Assembly (NCBI GenBank): GCA_001004345.1
Contig: LCQW01000011.1
Coordinates: 1-33,480 of the forward strand
DNA from: Candidatus Kaiserbacteria bacterium GW2011_GWA2_52_12
GTDB taxonomy: Bacteria; Patescibacteriota; Minisyncoccia; Phycocordibacterales; UBA2100
DNA length: 33,480 nucleotides
Direction: 5' to 3'
Shown: positions 6,182-31,274 of the stretch, piece by piece
How the letters are laid out: each line of letters opens with the position of its first letter
Numbering within the stretch: position 1 is the first letter of the stretch
Translations under genes and position numbers: made by a program
The notes under the pieces: model-generated
The model's database searches: none
The model's input: the letters and a program-made list of their open reading frames with translations, nothing else
What the model was told of the DNA's origin: nothing

Positions 6182-9782
<3,601 letters not shown>

Positions 9783-9788
9783 ACGAGA

Positions 9789-12700
9789 TTATTGGTTGAT
9801 AACATCGCCGCCTTTAAATTCAATGTCGATACCGAGACCACGCAAGTGCCGCACGAGCACGTTGAAAGTCGCCGGTGTGTTCGTCTCTTCGATTCGTTTG
9901 CCTGAAACTATCGCGTCGAATGCTGCCGAACGTCCCAGGATGTCATCGGACTTGATGGTGAGGATTTCGCGCAGGGAATAGGCGGCGCCGTAGCCGAGAA
10001 ACGCCCACACTTCCATTTCCCCGACGCGCTGACCGCCGTTCTGCGCCTTGCCCCCTAGGGGCTGCTGCGTCGTGAGTGAGTACGGGCCGATCGAACGCAT
10101 ATGGATCTTGTCTTCTACCATGTGGTGCAGCTTCAACATATACATGACACCGACGGACACGCGCTGCGCGAATGCTTCGCCGGTCCTACCGTCGAAGAGT
10201 ACCCGCTTGCCGTCTTCGGCAACGCCCGCTTCTTTCAATTCGCTGCGGATCTCCGCTTCTGTCGCGCCTGCGAACGACGGCACGACGGCCTGATAGCCGA
10301 GCATTTCTGCTGCGAGTCCGAGGTGTAATTCGAGGATCTGTCCGAGGTTCATACGTGACGGCACACCGAGCGGTGTCAGAATGATGTCGACCGGGTTGCC
10401 GCTCTCATCAAATGGCATGTCTTCCTCGGGAAGTACGCGCGAAATGACGCCTTTGTTGCCGTGACGTCCGGCTAGTTTGTCGCCGACCGAGATGGTGCGC
10501 AGTTGCGCGACCTCCACATGCACGCGCTTGATAACGCCCGATTCGAGCTGATCGCCCGTCTCGCGTGAAAATACTTTGATGCCGATGATGCGCCCGCGCT
10601 TGCCGCCTTCCATGCGAAGCGATGTGTCTTTCACATCTTTTGCTTTCTCGCCGAAGATCGCATGCAAGAGACGCTCTTCCGGAGTCAGCTGCGTCTCGCC
10701 TTTTGGCGTGACTTTGCCGACGAGAATATCGCCGGAGCGCACTTCTGCGCCGATGCGGACGACGCCGTCTTCATCGAGGTTGCGCAGTTTGAATTCTGAA
10801 ACGTTCGGAATGTCGTGGGTTGTGACTTCAGGTCCGAGCTTGGTGTCACGGACAACACACACGAATTCCTCCATGTGGATCGATGTGAAGCGGGCCTCTT
10901 TGGCGAGCTTTTCGGAGATAACGATGGCATCTTCGAAGTTGGCCCCGAACCACGGCAAAAAGGCGACGCGGACATTTTGTCCGATGGCGAGCTGACCCCC
11001 AACTGAGGTCGAAGTATCGGCAAGGAGACCGCCTTTTTTCACCGTGTCGCCGACCGATACGGCCGGACGCTGATGAAATGTCGTGAAGCCGTTGGTGCGC
11101 GAGAAATTTACCAATCCGTATTCTTTTGTCTTACCGTCTCCATTTTTCACCTTGATCAACTGCGCATCGGCATAGGTGACTTCGCCCGCTTCCTCGGCCA
11201 CTACCAAACGGCCGGAGTCGCGCGCAGCTGCACTCTCGACGCCTGTCGCCACGTACGGCGCGTCGGGCACCGCGAGCGGCACGGCTTGTTTTTGCATGTT
11301 GCTCCCCATGAGTGCGCGGTTGGCGTCGTCGTTCTCGACGAACGGAATGAGCGCGGTCGCGACGGAGAACGGCTGGTTGGTCGCGACCTCCATGAAATCC
11401 ACGTCCTCGCGCTTCACGAGCGTCGGGATGCCTTCTTTGCGGACTTCGATTATTTTTTCGGTGAGCTTCCCTTCCTCATCGCGCGGCGTCGCCGCGTGCG
11501 CGATCGCATATTGCTCTTCTTCAATCGCATTAATATAGACGATCTCTTTGGTCACGCGGCCCTTCTCCACTTTTGCATACGGCGTTTCGATGATGCCGAA
11601 TTCATTGGGACGCGCATAGAGCGACATGTGGAGCACGAGTCCGATATTTTTACCTTCAGGTGTGTGAATAGGACACACGCGGCCGTAGTGCGATGAGTGC
11701 ACGTCGCGCACTTCAAGGCCGGCGCGCTCTGAGGTGAGTCCGCCACGGCCGAGGGTGGAAAGCGTGCGCAAGTGCTCGATCTCGTCGAGCGTATTGTATT
11801 GCTGCATGAGCTGCGAGAGCTGGTCGGTCGTGAAAAATTCGCGTATTGCCGCCTGGAACGGGCGCGGGTTGACGAGCGAAACCGGCAAAATGGTCTCGGC
11901 GTCCACCATTGCCATCCGGTCTTGGATGTTGCGCTTCATGCGGGATAATCCGATGCGCATGCGCTGCTCGAGAAGCTCGCCTGCAAAACGTACGCGGCGA
12001 AAACCGAGATGGTCGATGTCGTCTCCTTCTGCCTGCGGATCAGCGTTCTGATCGGCGATGTGTGTGACTATACGGACGACATCGTCGAGCGAGAGCGTCG
12101 CCTTTAGAAGGTCCGCTTCTTTGATGCTCAAACCGAAACGACGATTGAAATGAAAACGTCCGACACGCGAGAAATCGTACCTCTCGGCGGAGAGAATCGC
12201 TTGCACATGTGTGCGTGCCGATTCCGGCGTCGCGATGTCGCCGTCGCGCAATCGCCGGTAGATCTCTACGTACGCCTCTTCGGGAGTCTTGGCATTGTCG
12301 TGTGTAAGTGTCATCGCGATAGAGTCGCGAGCCGCCGTCTTATCAAATCGTCCTTGAATTTCTTTGTCGGTCGCGAGGCCGAGTACGCGGAGAAGCGCCG
12401 TCACCGGAAAGTGGCGTTTGCGGTCGATCTTCACATACACGGCGCCATCAGCGTCGGATTCGATCTCTATCCACACGCCGCGTGCGGGGATGATCTTTGC
12501 TGCGAAATAGCCCTTGCCTTTGTAGGGAACTGATTCAAAAAATACGCCGTAGCTGCGCGCGAGCTGCGGCACGACGATGCGCTCGACGCCGTTGATGATG
12601 AACGTGCCGTGAGCGGTCATCCACGGAAAATCCGCGAGGAAAATCTCCTGCTCTTTCTCTTCGCCGGTCGTTTTGTTCTTCAAGCGAACAATCATCGAAA

Positions 12701-27636: not shown

Positions 27637-28839
27637 ATGGCTGAAATCGATCAAATCAGACACACGCTCTCTCACCTCACCGTAGCCGCGGTGCGCGAAT
27701 TATGGCCGGGATCCCAAAATGCGATCGGGCCGGCAATCGACAACGGCTTTTATCAAGATTTTGAAATCGCGGGAACAATAACCGATGCCGATCTGCCGAA
27801 GATAGAGGCGAAAATGCGGGAATTCTTGCCGAAATGGACTGGTTTCGAAAAAAAAGAAGTAAGCAAAGAAGAGGCCCTGAAAGAATTCGCGTGGAACAAA
27901 TACAAATGCGAGCTTATCGAAGAGTTCGCAGACCAGGATAAAAAAATTACTTTTCACAATGCACCGGGACTCGTGGACCTCTGCAAGGGCGGTCACACGG
28001 AAAACCCGGCTAAAGAAATCGCCCCGGATTCCTTCAAACTCGACCGTGTCGCGGGCGCGTACTGGCGCGGTGATGAGAAAAATATAATGCTCACGCGCAT
28101 CTACGGTCTCGCGTTCGGCACAAAGGCCGAACTCGACGCCTACCTCACGCAGCGCGAAGAAGCCGCCAAGCGTGACCACCGCAAGCTCGGGAAAGAGATG
28201 GACCTTTTTATCACCTCCGAGCTCGTCGGTCAGGGCCTTCCGCTCTGGACGCCACGAGGGACCATCTTCCGCAATACGCTCGATGCATACGTGTGGGAAT
28301 TGCGCTCCAAACATGGATATCAACAGGTCACCATTCCTCACATCACAAAAAAAGATTTGTATGAAAAGTCCGGCCATTGGGCAAAATTCGCCAATGAGCT
28401 GTTCCGCATCGAGACGCGAGAAGGCAAAGAGTACGCACTGAAGCCCATGAACTGTCCGCACCATACGCAGATATTCGCGCGCAAGCCGCATTCGTACCGC
28501 GAAATGCCACAGCGTTATGCCGAGACGACGATGGTCTACCGCGACGAACAATCGGGAGAACTCGGGGGACTCACGCGCGTCATTTCCATCACACAAGACG
28601 ATTCGCACGTCTTTTGTCGCGTGGACCAAGTGCGCGATGAATTTTTTATCGTCTGGGACATTATCGAAAAATTCTACGGCACGTTCGGCTTCAAGCTCCG
28701 TGTGCGCCTTTCCTTCCACGACCCGAATGAGATGCAAAAATATCTCGGCACGCCGGAGATATGGAAAAATGCCGAAGAGGCTCTGCGCAGGCCAACTCGA
28801 CATGAATTTGCCAGAACGGTTCGACCTCACCTGCGTTAA
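27637..28839 (+). CDS. thrS: Threonyl-tRNA synthetase, N-terminal and catalytic part (frame broken)
   Basis: Class II synthetase that charges tRNA-Thr. It starts directly at the editing domain (HTLSH near residue 9 and LCKGGH near 115 form its metal/editing site) and lacks the N-terminal TGS domain. Catalytic motifs: KPMNCPHHTQIF with the zinc Cys, and motif 2 region VYRDEQSGELGGLTR then SITQDDSHVFC. The true product runs to about EIWKNAEEALR; the last ~14 residues are out of frame. At that point about 40 codons (including the GAFYGPK block and third zinc ligand) are missing and the reading frame changes. The gene follows dnaE by 58 nt. Confidence 0.9.
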   Translation: MAEIDQIRHTLSHLTVAAVRELWPGSQNAIGPAIDNGFYQDFEIAGTITDADLPKIEAKMREFLPKWTGFEKKEVSKEEALKEFAWNKYKCELIEEFADQDKKITFHNAPGLVDLCKGGHTENPAKEIAPDSFKLDRVAGAYWRGDEKNIMLTRIYGLAFGTKAELDAYLTQREEAAKRDHRKLGKEMDLFITSELVGQGLPLWTPRGTIFRNTLDAYVWELRSKHGYQQVTIPHITKKDLYEKSGHWAKFANELFRIETREGKEYALKPMNCPHHTQIFARKPHSYREMPQRYAETTMVYRDEQSGELGGLTRVISITQDDSHVFCRVDQVRDEFFIVWDIIEKFYGTFGFKLRVRLSFHDPNEMQKYLGTPEIWKNAEEALRRPTRHEFARTVRPHLR

Positions 28840-29248
28840 CGAGAAGAGCGAGAAGGAACGCATCGTCATGATCCACTGCGCCATCATGGGCTCGATAGAG
28901 CGCTTTTCGGCTGTGCTCATCGAACACCTTGCCGGAGTCTTCCCCGTGTGGCTCTCGCCCGTGCAAGTGCGTGTGTTACCGATTTCCGAAAAACATTCAG
29001 AGTACGCGCGCGGAACATTGTCCGAATTACGTACGCACGGCATTCGCGCTGAAATGGACGACACCGAAAGTCTCGGTAAGCGCATCCGCAATGTGAAGAT
29101 CGAAAAAATTCCGTATTTCCTCGTCATCGGAGAAGAAGAAGTGAATGCACAAACAGCCACACTTGAAAGCCGCACAGGAAAAGTGGGCGCATTTCCTGTG
29201 AGCGATATCATTTCAAAACTATTGGAAGAAATCCGTAATCGCGATTAA
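28802..29248 (+). CDS. thrS: Threonyl-tRNA synthetase, C-terminal part (frame broken)
   Basis: Continues thrS in another frame, from QLDMNLPERFDLTCV; ATG is simply the first Met of the fragment. Motif 3, IHCAIMGSIERFSAVLIEH, with the conserved Arg is present. The anticodon-binding domain follows: VWLSPVQVRVLPISEKHSEY, RAEMDDTESLGKRIRN, KIPYFLVIGEEEV. The fragment cannot be active alone. It would complete a normal ThrRS if the ~40 missing codons were restored between the parts. Confidence 0.88.
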   Translation: MNLPERFDLTCVNEKSEKERIVMIHCAIMGSIERFSAVLIEHLAGVFPVWLSPVQVRVLPISEKHSEYARGTLSELRTHGIRAEMDDTESLGKRIRNVKIEKIPYFLVIGEEEVNAQTATLESRTGKVGAFPVSDIISKLLEEIRNRD

Positions 29249-29788: not shown

Positions 29789-31246
29789 TTAATTGCGAGT
29801 GATCATGATGCGAGGCGCACTACCGTCCTCTGACATATAGAAGTCCATTGAATCATGCGTTACGTCCCGGTGTTCAGCGACGGGAAGATTGAATGCAGGC
29901 GTATCGACAGGAAGATCGCGGATCGGAGCTGCTGCTTTTGCTACCGGCGCCTCTTCGATATCGCGTTCAGGCACAGTAGTAGTAGAAGTACGGCGACCGC
30001 TCACCTCCGCTTGCTTCGGCGAGGCACTGCGCACCATTTCACTCGCGAGCGCGAGCGCACCGCCCTGGTAGTAGACCACGAGGTACGCTGCCGCGACTGC
30101 GAAGCCAAGGAGCACCACCCAGTACATCGCGTTCCCGATCGGCCCGAAATCAAAGCCGGTGTAGGGTATCTGCGAGAGAGACACATACGGAGCGGGAGTC
30201 GTTGTCGGCGGAACGTACGTCGACGTGTAGTAGTACGTCGCCTGGCAGTTTGCACTCTGACCATTCTGACCATAGACCGTCATCGTGTAGATCTGATTTG
30301 TCCCCGGCGAGACGAGCCGCGAACCCGACGTGTTCACATTGCCGATGCTCGGACTGATGTAGGCCGAGGTGGCGTACGAAGATGTCCATGTGAGCATCGC
30401 CTGGTTGCTGCCGTAGTTGTAGCTACCGTAATTGTTCGCAATCGTGAGTGTGCAGTACGGCGCTTGGTATGTGTATGTCGGTTGCTGCGGGTAGACGTAC
30501 TGGATCGGATACTGAATGATCGGCATCTGGTAGACCGGCGTGACTGGCGCTTGCTGCGGCACGTTCACCACCACGTTGATGTTGTTGGTGCTGTTGCCGG
30601 AGTTCGATACAGAGCTGTTGCTTGTCGAGTTTGAATTGCTCGAACTGGTGTTGGTATTTGTATTCGTGCTTGTAACAATGTTCTCGTTGAAGTTGACGTT
30701 CTCATTCGTATTGGTGTTCTCGTTGACGCTCGTAACTTCATTCGCAATAGAAACCGGTTGACCGATCGGAACGATGCTGTACGACAGGGTTTGGTTGATC
30801 GGTCGAGGCTCTGGACGCGATGTCGGAGTCGGCGTTTGATAGTACGAGGTCGGATGCCCGATGGAAACCGGGTAGCTCGAAACGCTCGGGTAGAAGCCCT
30901 GGCCGGCAGAATACATCACACCGTCAGAGCCATAGTATGTCGGCGCTTCAGAGTAATACGGGGAATAGGTCGAGTCGTAGCCGAGTGAATACGAAGAATC
31001 ATAACCGGGACTATACGTGGAATCGTATCCGGGTGTGTACGCCCAATCATAGCCGGGATCGTAGGAATAACTCGAGCCCGCATCGTACGAATAGTCGTAG
31101 CCAGGATCGTAGGAGTAGCTGGAGCCTCCACCACAGAAATCACAGCCGTCATATTGCGCATACGCGTTCGGCGCAAAAGCAGAGACCATCGTCACAACGG
31201 CGATTGTCACAAGCACAGAACCGAAACTTTTTTGTAATGTATTCAT
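29789..31246 (-). CDS. Tyr- and Asn-rich exported, membrane-anchored surface protein
   Basis: 485 residues from MNTLQKSFGSVLVTIAVVT. The signal peptide ends near APNAYAQYD. Residues ~30-100 are tandem repeats of the type SYDPGYD/STYSPGYD, then a Pro/Tyr linker. Residues ~160-215 are an Asn/Thr/Ser tract (NENTNTNENVNFNEN..). A beta-rich domain with a Cys pair (YCTLTIANNYGS...SANCQATYYY) follows. IPYTGFDFGPIG, a sortase-like motif variant, precedes one membrane span (AMYWVVLLGFAVAAAYLVVY) and a charged tail of ~100 residues. That long tail makes sortase anchoring doubtful. It is probably a cell-surface fibre or adhesin-like protein (inference). A perfect consensus promoter stands upstream. Confidence 0.8.
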   Translation of the reverse strand: MNTLQKSFGSVLVTIAVVTMVSAFAPNAYAQYDGCDFCGGGSSYSYDPGYDYSYDAGSSYSYDPGYDWAYTPGYDSTYSPGYDSSYSLGYDSTYSPYYSEAPTYYGSDGVMYSAGQGFYPSVSSYPVSIGHPTSYYQTPTPTSRPEPRPINQTLSYSIVPIGQPVSIANEVTSVNENTNTNENVNFNENIVTSTNTNTNTSSSNSNSTSNSSVSNSGNSTNNINVVVNVPQQAPVTPVYQMPIIQYPIQYVYPQQPTYTYQAPYCTLTIANNYGSYNYGSNQAMLTWTSSYATSAYISPSIGNVNTSGSRLVSPGTNQIYTMTVYGQNGQSANCQATYYYTSTYVPPTTTPAPYVSLSQIPYTGFDFGPIGNAMYWVVLLGFAVAAAYLVVYYQGGALALASEMVRSASPKQAEVSGRRTSTTTVPERDIEEAPVAKAAAPIRDLPVDTPAFNLPVAEHRDVTHDSMDFYMSEDGSAPRIMITRN

Positions 31247-31274
31247 ACGACTATGATTTATTATTAACATGGAA

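Follow-up and report, generated by a model that had tools for sequence, protein, structure and literature searches.

The window analysed here, by which we mean the whole stretch of 33,480 bases, raises the question of whether a member of the Patescibacteria carries a broken gene for threonyl-tRNA synthetase (ThrRS), or whether the break in thrS arose when the genome was put together. The window is a complete contig (53.1% GC, 0 N) of the draft genome of Candidatus Kaiserbacteria bacterium GW2011_GWA2_52_12, which consists of 924,614 bases in 38 contigs and is 91% complete. A Pfam scan of ten window proteins recognised a sigma factor, dnaG, rpoC, a RecF/RecN/SMC protein, a kinase/pyrophosphorylase, dnaE and thrS. 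A protein of 493 residues (29789-31270, minus strand) had no Pfam match at E 1e-5 and showed, by eye, Tyr/Gly/Ser-rich and Asn/Thr/Ser-rich stretches and a hydrophobic segment. Among the matches listed, the best named relatives of the window thrS were Patescibacteria metagenome-assembled genomes (MAGs), such as Nomurabacteria and Yanofskybacteria.

In the window, thrS is split into two parts on the plus strand. The first part (27637..28788, frame 1) encodes an editing domain (about residues 1-173) and the start of the class II catalytic core, ending in EEALR; no TGS domain was seen. Beyond 28788, frame 1 runs on for 16 codons without ThrRS similarity to a stop at 28839. The second part (28793..29248, plus strand, frame 2) encodes the end of the catalytic core (VMIHCAIMGSIERF) and the anticodon-binding domain. 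At the junction (28788..28793, plus strand), 4 nt (28789-28792) separate the final codon of the first part from the QLD that opens the second, and the reading frame changes; most relatives have 41 codons in place of these 4 nt. Relative to other genomes, 94 of the 99 query alignments showed a net loss of 119 nt, three showed 122 and one showed 107, these being the three commonest values, and several of the queries were overlapping copies of one locus and thus not all independent. A pattern search matched 10 of 29 whole-genome thrS loci (L083-L111), in which the corresponding stretch was 81 residues long (eight loci) or 82 (two loci); its equivalent in the window is 40 codons plus 4 nt. Likewise, positions 1-376 of the NCBIfam profile TIGR00418 matched the first part and positions 417-564 the second, so that about 40 profile positions (377-416) are absent. 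The first part alone scored 388 and 386.5 bits, above the curated cut-off of 383.65.

By alignment of one relative's protein (L084) with the E. coli enzyme (1qf6), the missing part corresponds to about E. coli residues 442-483, including YGPK, and no YGPK segment of the catalytic core within one open frame was found in the window. Counted on the same alignment, Y462, K465 and Q479 fall inside the missing part and H385 outside it; we take residues such as these to bind zinc or substrate. Compared with known bacterial ThrRS (TIGR00418; 1qf6, 1nyq), the window gene is alike in that the editing domain, class II core and anticodon-binding domain flank the gap, but it differs in lacking about 41 core residues and in its changed frame. 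The preliminary description, made from the letters of the window, had noted a gene about 40 codons short with a frame change near 28790, an absent YGPK segment and two halves free of slow decay, and all of this is borne out: neither half contains a stop, and both align with ordinary levels of identity.

Its further statement that a zinc-binding region was lost with the gap turned out to be wrong, because the cysteine and both histidines concerned lie in the retained halves. The Cys of MNCP and the His of DDSH, both in the first part, were aligned to the same residues of the S. aureus enzyme (1nyq), the DDSH His of L084 aligns with E. coli H385 (1qf6), and the His of IHCA in the second part was counted on the alignment as E. 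coli position 511. Thus, all three residues of the Cys-His-His site, to which we attribute zinc binding, are kept. Judged from the assembled sequence, the catalytic core is broken despite these retained residues.

A second break was found on the same contig, 21.8 kb away, in rpoC. Its first part (7032..9782, minus strand) aligns to relatives over residues 1-917, its second part (6182..7036, minus strand) lies in another frame, and the frame changes at 7032/7036 within the junction (7030..7038, minus strand). Of 29 query alignments, 28 gave a net loss of 134 nt and the remaining one gave 119. The segment missing from the window would code for GEPGTQLTMRTFHTGG, and the stretch across the junction measured 77 residues in all 20 relatives' loci matched by a pattern search (of 29, L113-L141). 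Judged by open-frame length, the rpoC frame continued past the break site in 38 of 40 relatives; the exceptions were G021, which stops at a contig end, and G010, which has the first 317 residues only. The relative G008 likewise carries thrS and rpoC on a single contig, where they lie about 18 kb from each other and are oriented to one another as in the window. The likeness between the two breaks that had been proposed therefore stands as far as both being real, clean and frame-changing, and fails for their size (134 vs 119 nt).

When the missing ThrRS and RpoC peptides were searched against the 924,614-base assembly, no match was found at E values up to 10. As a positive control, each query recovered its segment in five of five relatives tried, and the relatives carry the segments between the same flanks, as a local assembly error in the window would require. 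The preliminary description had held that another thrS elsewhere, together with reads supporting the deletion, would speak against an artefact; profile and window-protein searches of the assembly found none. Other thrS-like places (in contigs C29, C27 and C23) were weak and far below the cut-off, and are of the kind expected from other synthetases.

We then surveyed such losses with 5,741 reading frames from the fetched loci of other genomes as tblastn queries. The survey compares genes common to the fetched pieces, requires two conserved flanks and is blind to losses at gene ends and to those above about 360 nt. The own genome contributed 96 aligned stretches (93 kb), with the halves of broken genes counted apart. 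Frame-changing losses of at least 60 nt numbered two in the window (20 stretches), in thrS and rpoC, and none in the 76 stretches (70 kb) of 14 other pieces of the same genome or in the 454 stretches (434 kb) of G002, G003, G008 and G011; G009 was excluded from the count. A candidate third break in L149 (net 122) was rejected, as a neighbouring frame had matched there by chance; weak events near window positions 9785-10132 lay at the border of two genes, and an event in L148 (net 19) came from a single query with about 50% identity. The other window genes tested showed no small internal frameshift, which argues against a noisy long-read assembly.

The rpoC of G009 showed a net loss of 116 nt (L173:5105-5110, on G009:C57); it is located at another rpoC site, its junction reads NN, and it has the look of a scaffold gap whose size was misjudged. 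This gap resembles those in the window in size (the two N being counted as bases), in its frame change and in affecting a conserved essential gene, but differs in site and in the NN. A run of six N also occurs in another contig of the own genome (L155), and neither the thrS nor the rpoC junction of the window contains any N. Of 12 N runs tested in the fetched loci, seven had a usable match and five had none, and a large net loss was seen in G009 only; with one such loss among seven usable runs, a misjudged size at every N run was rejected. In principle, a short N run might also be a mask introduced by the collection instead of a scaffold gap.

We propose that the gaps in thrS and rpoC probably arose from two local errors in the assembly of this Patescibacteria MAG, a reading to which we assign a probability of roughly 0.86. 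It is favored because two essential genes on one contig both show clean, frame-changing losses, because the remaining halves show no decay and no second thrS was found, and because relatives hold the segments and one of them has a similar gap marked by N. An assembler or scaffolder would have joined the two thrS flanks directly, with loss of about 119 bases including the YGPK-coding stretch, and a second error of like kind would have dropped 134 bases from rpoC. The faulty step may have been a join at which the gap was wrongly estimated or removed. Scaffolds with misjudged gaps are suggested by the NN in the G009 rpoC and the N run in L155, and a join that left no N would produce the pattern seen in thrS and rpoC; the living organism presumably retains both segments. 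In the pertinent passages of their paper, Chen et al. (2020; PMC7111523) described how protein-coding genes come out incomplete or incorrect through scaffold gaps or local assembly errors; for a single CPR genome they gave 13 errors of the latter type. The window resembles the cases in those passages in that a gene of a CPR-type draft genome contains a local fault while its flanks are intact; on the other hand, its junctions carry no N, and a clean loss of this size is not described in those passages.

An assembly artefact had already been suggested in the preliminary description and is still the best reading; the equal sizes and single k-mer length on which it had drawn, like the zinc loss, did not hold up. 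Losses of 119 nt (thrS) and 134 nt (rpoC) differ, and therefore no single k-mer mechanism fits: an artefact of one fixed k-mer length would require equal losses. The default k values of MEGAHIT include 119, and 134 is not known to be among them. A tangle of the assembly graph at unusually conserved DNA was also considered and found to be unsupported for thrS and weak for rpoC, since the lost segments are of unexceptional nucleotide conservation. The fraction of comparison windows at least as conserved as the lost segment was 0.199 for rpoC (13 of 14 named loci in the run) and 0.435 and 0.565 for the two thrS sets (8 of 9 and 8 of 8 named loci). In relatives, the GC content of the missing rpoC segment averaged 0.616, compared with 0.567 for the whole gene, and that of the missing thrS segment exceeded the whole gene in seven of eight and six of eight rows of two overlapping sets.

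This somewhat higher GC would suit a local loss of coverage, and hence an explanation in which the assembly took up a deletion from a few library molecules, either chimeric or from a minority strain variant, where the true path had low coverage. We consider this unlikely, and hold the same view of the sources that such deletion molecules might have had, namely template switching, an amplification chimera or a rare mutant. By eye, a long repeat is absent at both junctions, which would agree with it, and the two rpoC sides may share up to 4 nt (GTCA), depending on an unread codon; but two events in one contig would require low depth along the contig. The thrS junction may also be envisaged as a chimera of two species, as residues 421-450 of the window protein are closer to five short-form relatives (0.85-0.92) than to G002 (0.77). 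However, G002 is the best match both after the gap (69%) and for the core before it (84%), and the drop in identity after the gap falls mainly in the last 90 residues.

The assembled sequence, read as it stands and without N, would mean that thrS and rpoC were both broken by recent deletions in the sampled population. Cells would not be expected to survive the loss of either gene, the searches found no second thrS, 38 of 40 relatives continue rpoC past the site, and the remaining halves show no decay; we regard such a double knockout as very unlikely. More improbable still is the version in which both deletions are real and the population, or a moribund part of it, relies on other cells or on intact sister genomes; if it were true, cells with broken thrS and rpoC would depend on others for transcription and threonine charging. 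That the two thrS halves work as separate or frameshifted parts of one enzyme is hardly conceivable: both are open and conserved, but about 41 residues with the YGPK and WQVATI stretch are missing altogether, and no joining of frames restores any of them.

Apart from the break, the ThrRS of the genus has a mixed ancestry. The editing domain of the window protein was 90% identical to that of G008, 88% to G011 and 56% to G002; for its catalytic core before the gap, the identities were 84% with G002, 69% with G011 and 44% with G008 (mosaic loci: window 27637-28788, L083, L084 and L088). The ThrRS of G011 and G008, both encoded by open genes, shared 93% identity in the editing domain and 47% in the core. 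In trees of 18 rows (17 relatives included; LG+G4 without a mixture; clades named after the identities had been seen), the editing domain of the window fell into a clade with G011 and G008 (support 100/100), and its catalytic core joined that of G002 (100/98); a long-branch warning for the core tree concerned other rows. AU tests rejected a core clade uniting the window, G011 and G008 (p-AU 5.7e-27), as well as an editing-domain pairing of the window with G002 (p-AU 5.0e-12). Thus, the ThrRS of this genus is a domain mosaic, more likely of biological origin, whose editing and catalytic domains have different histories; assembly of the window does not account for it, because the open G011 and G008 genes also disagree with each other. 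Among the papers listed by a literature search of titles and abstract starts, no title dealt with a ThrRS editing-domain mosaic, which is no proof of novelty.

Ten other genus members (L100, L101, L103, L104, L105 and L107-L111) had short ThrRS forms, whose open frames span 413-452 residues and whose identity to the window core is 62-67% or 42-43%; they apparently have no editing domain, because their matches start near residue 174. In G004 and G017 (89% and 99% complete), there was no clear ThrRS match to the window protein, and matches to the thrS profile were far below the cut-off, the best being G017:C18:13809-14981.

With regard to the breaks themselves, local assembly errors as the probable cause bear on how MAGs are read. 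When an essential gene in a MAG has cleanly lost a hundred-odd bases, automatic annotation may take this for decay or for a split gene. Such losses can also pass for lineage-specific gene loss, and in the present genome thrS and rpoC would be counted as broken.
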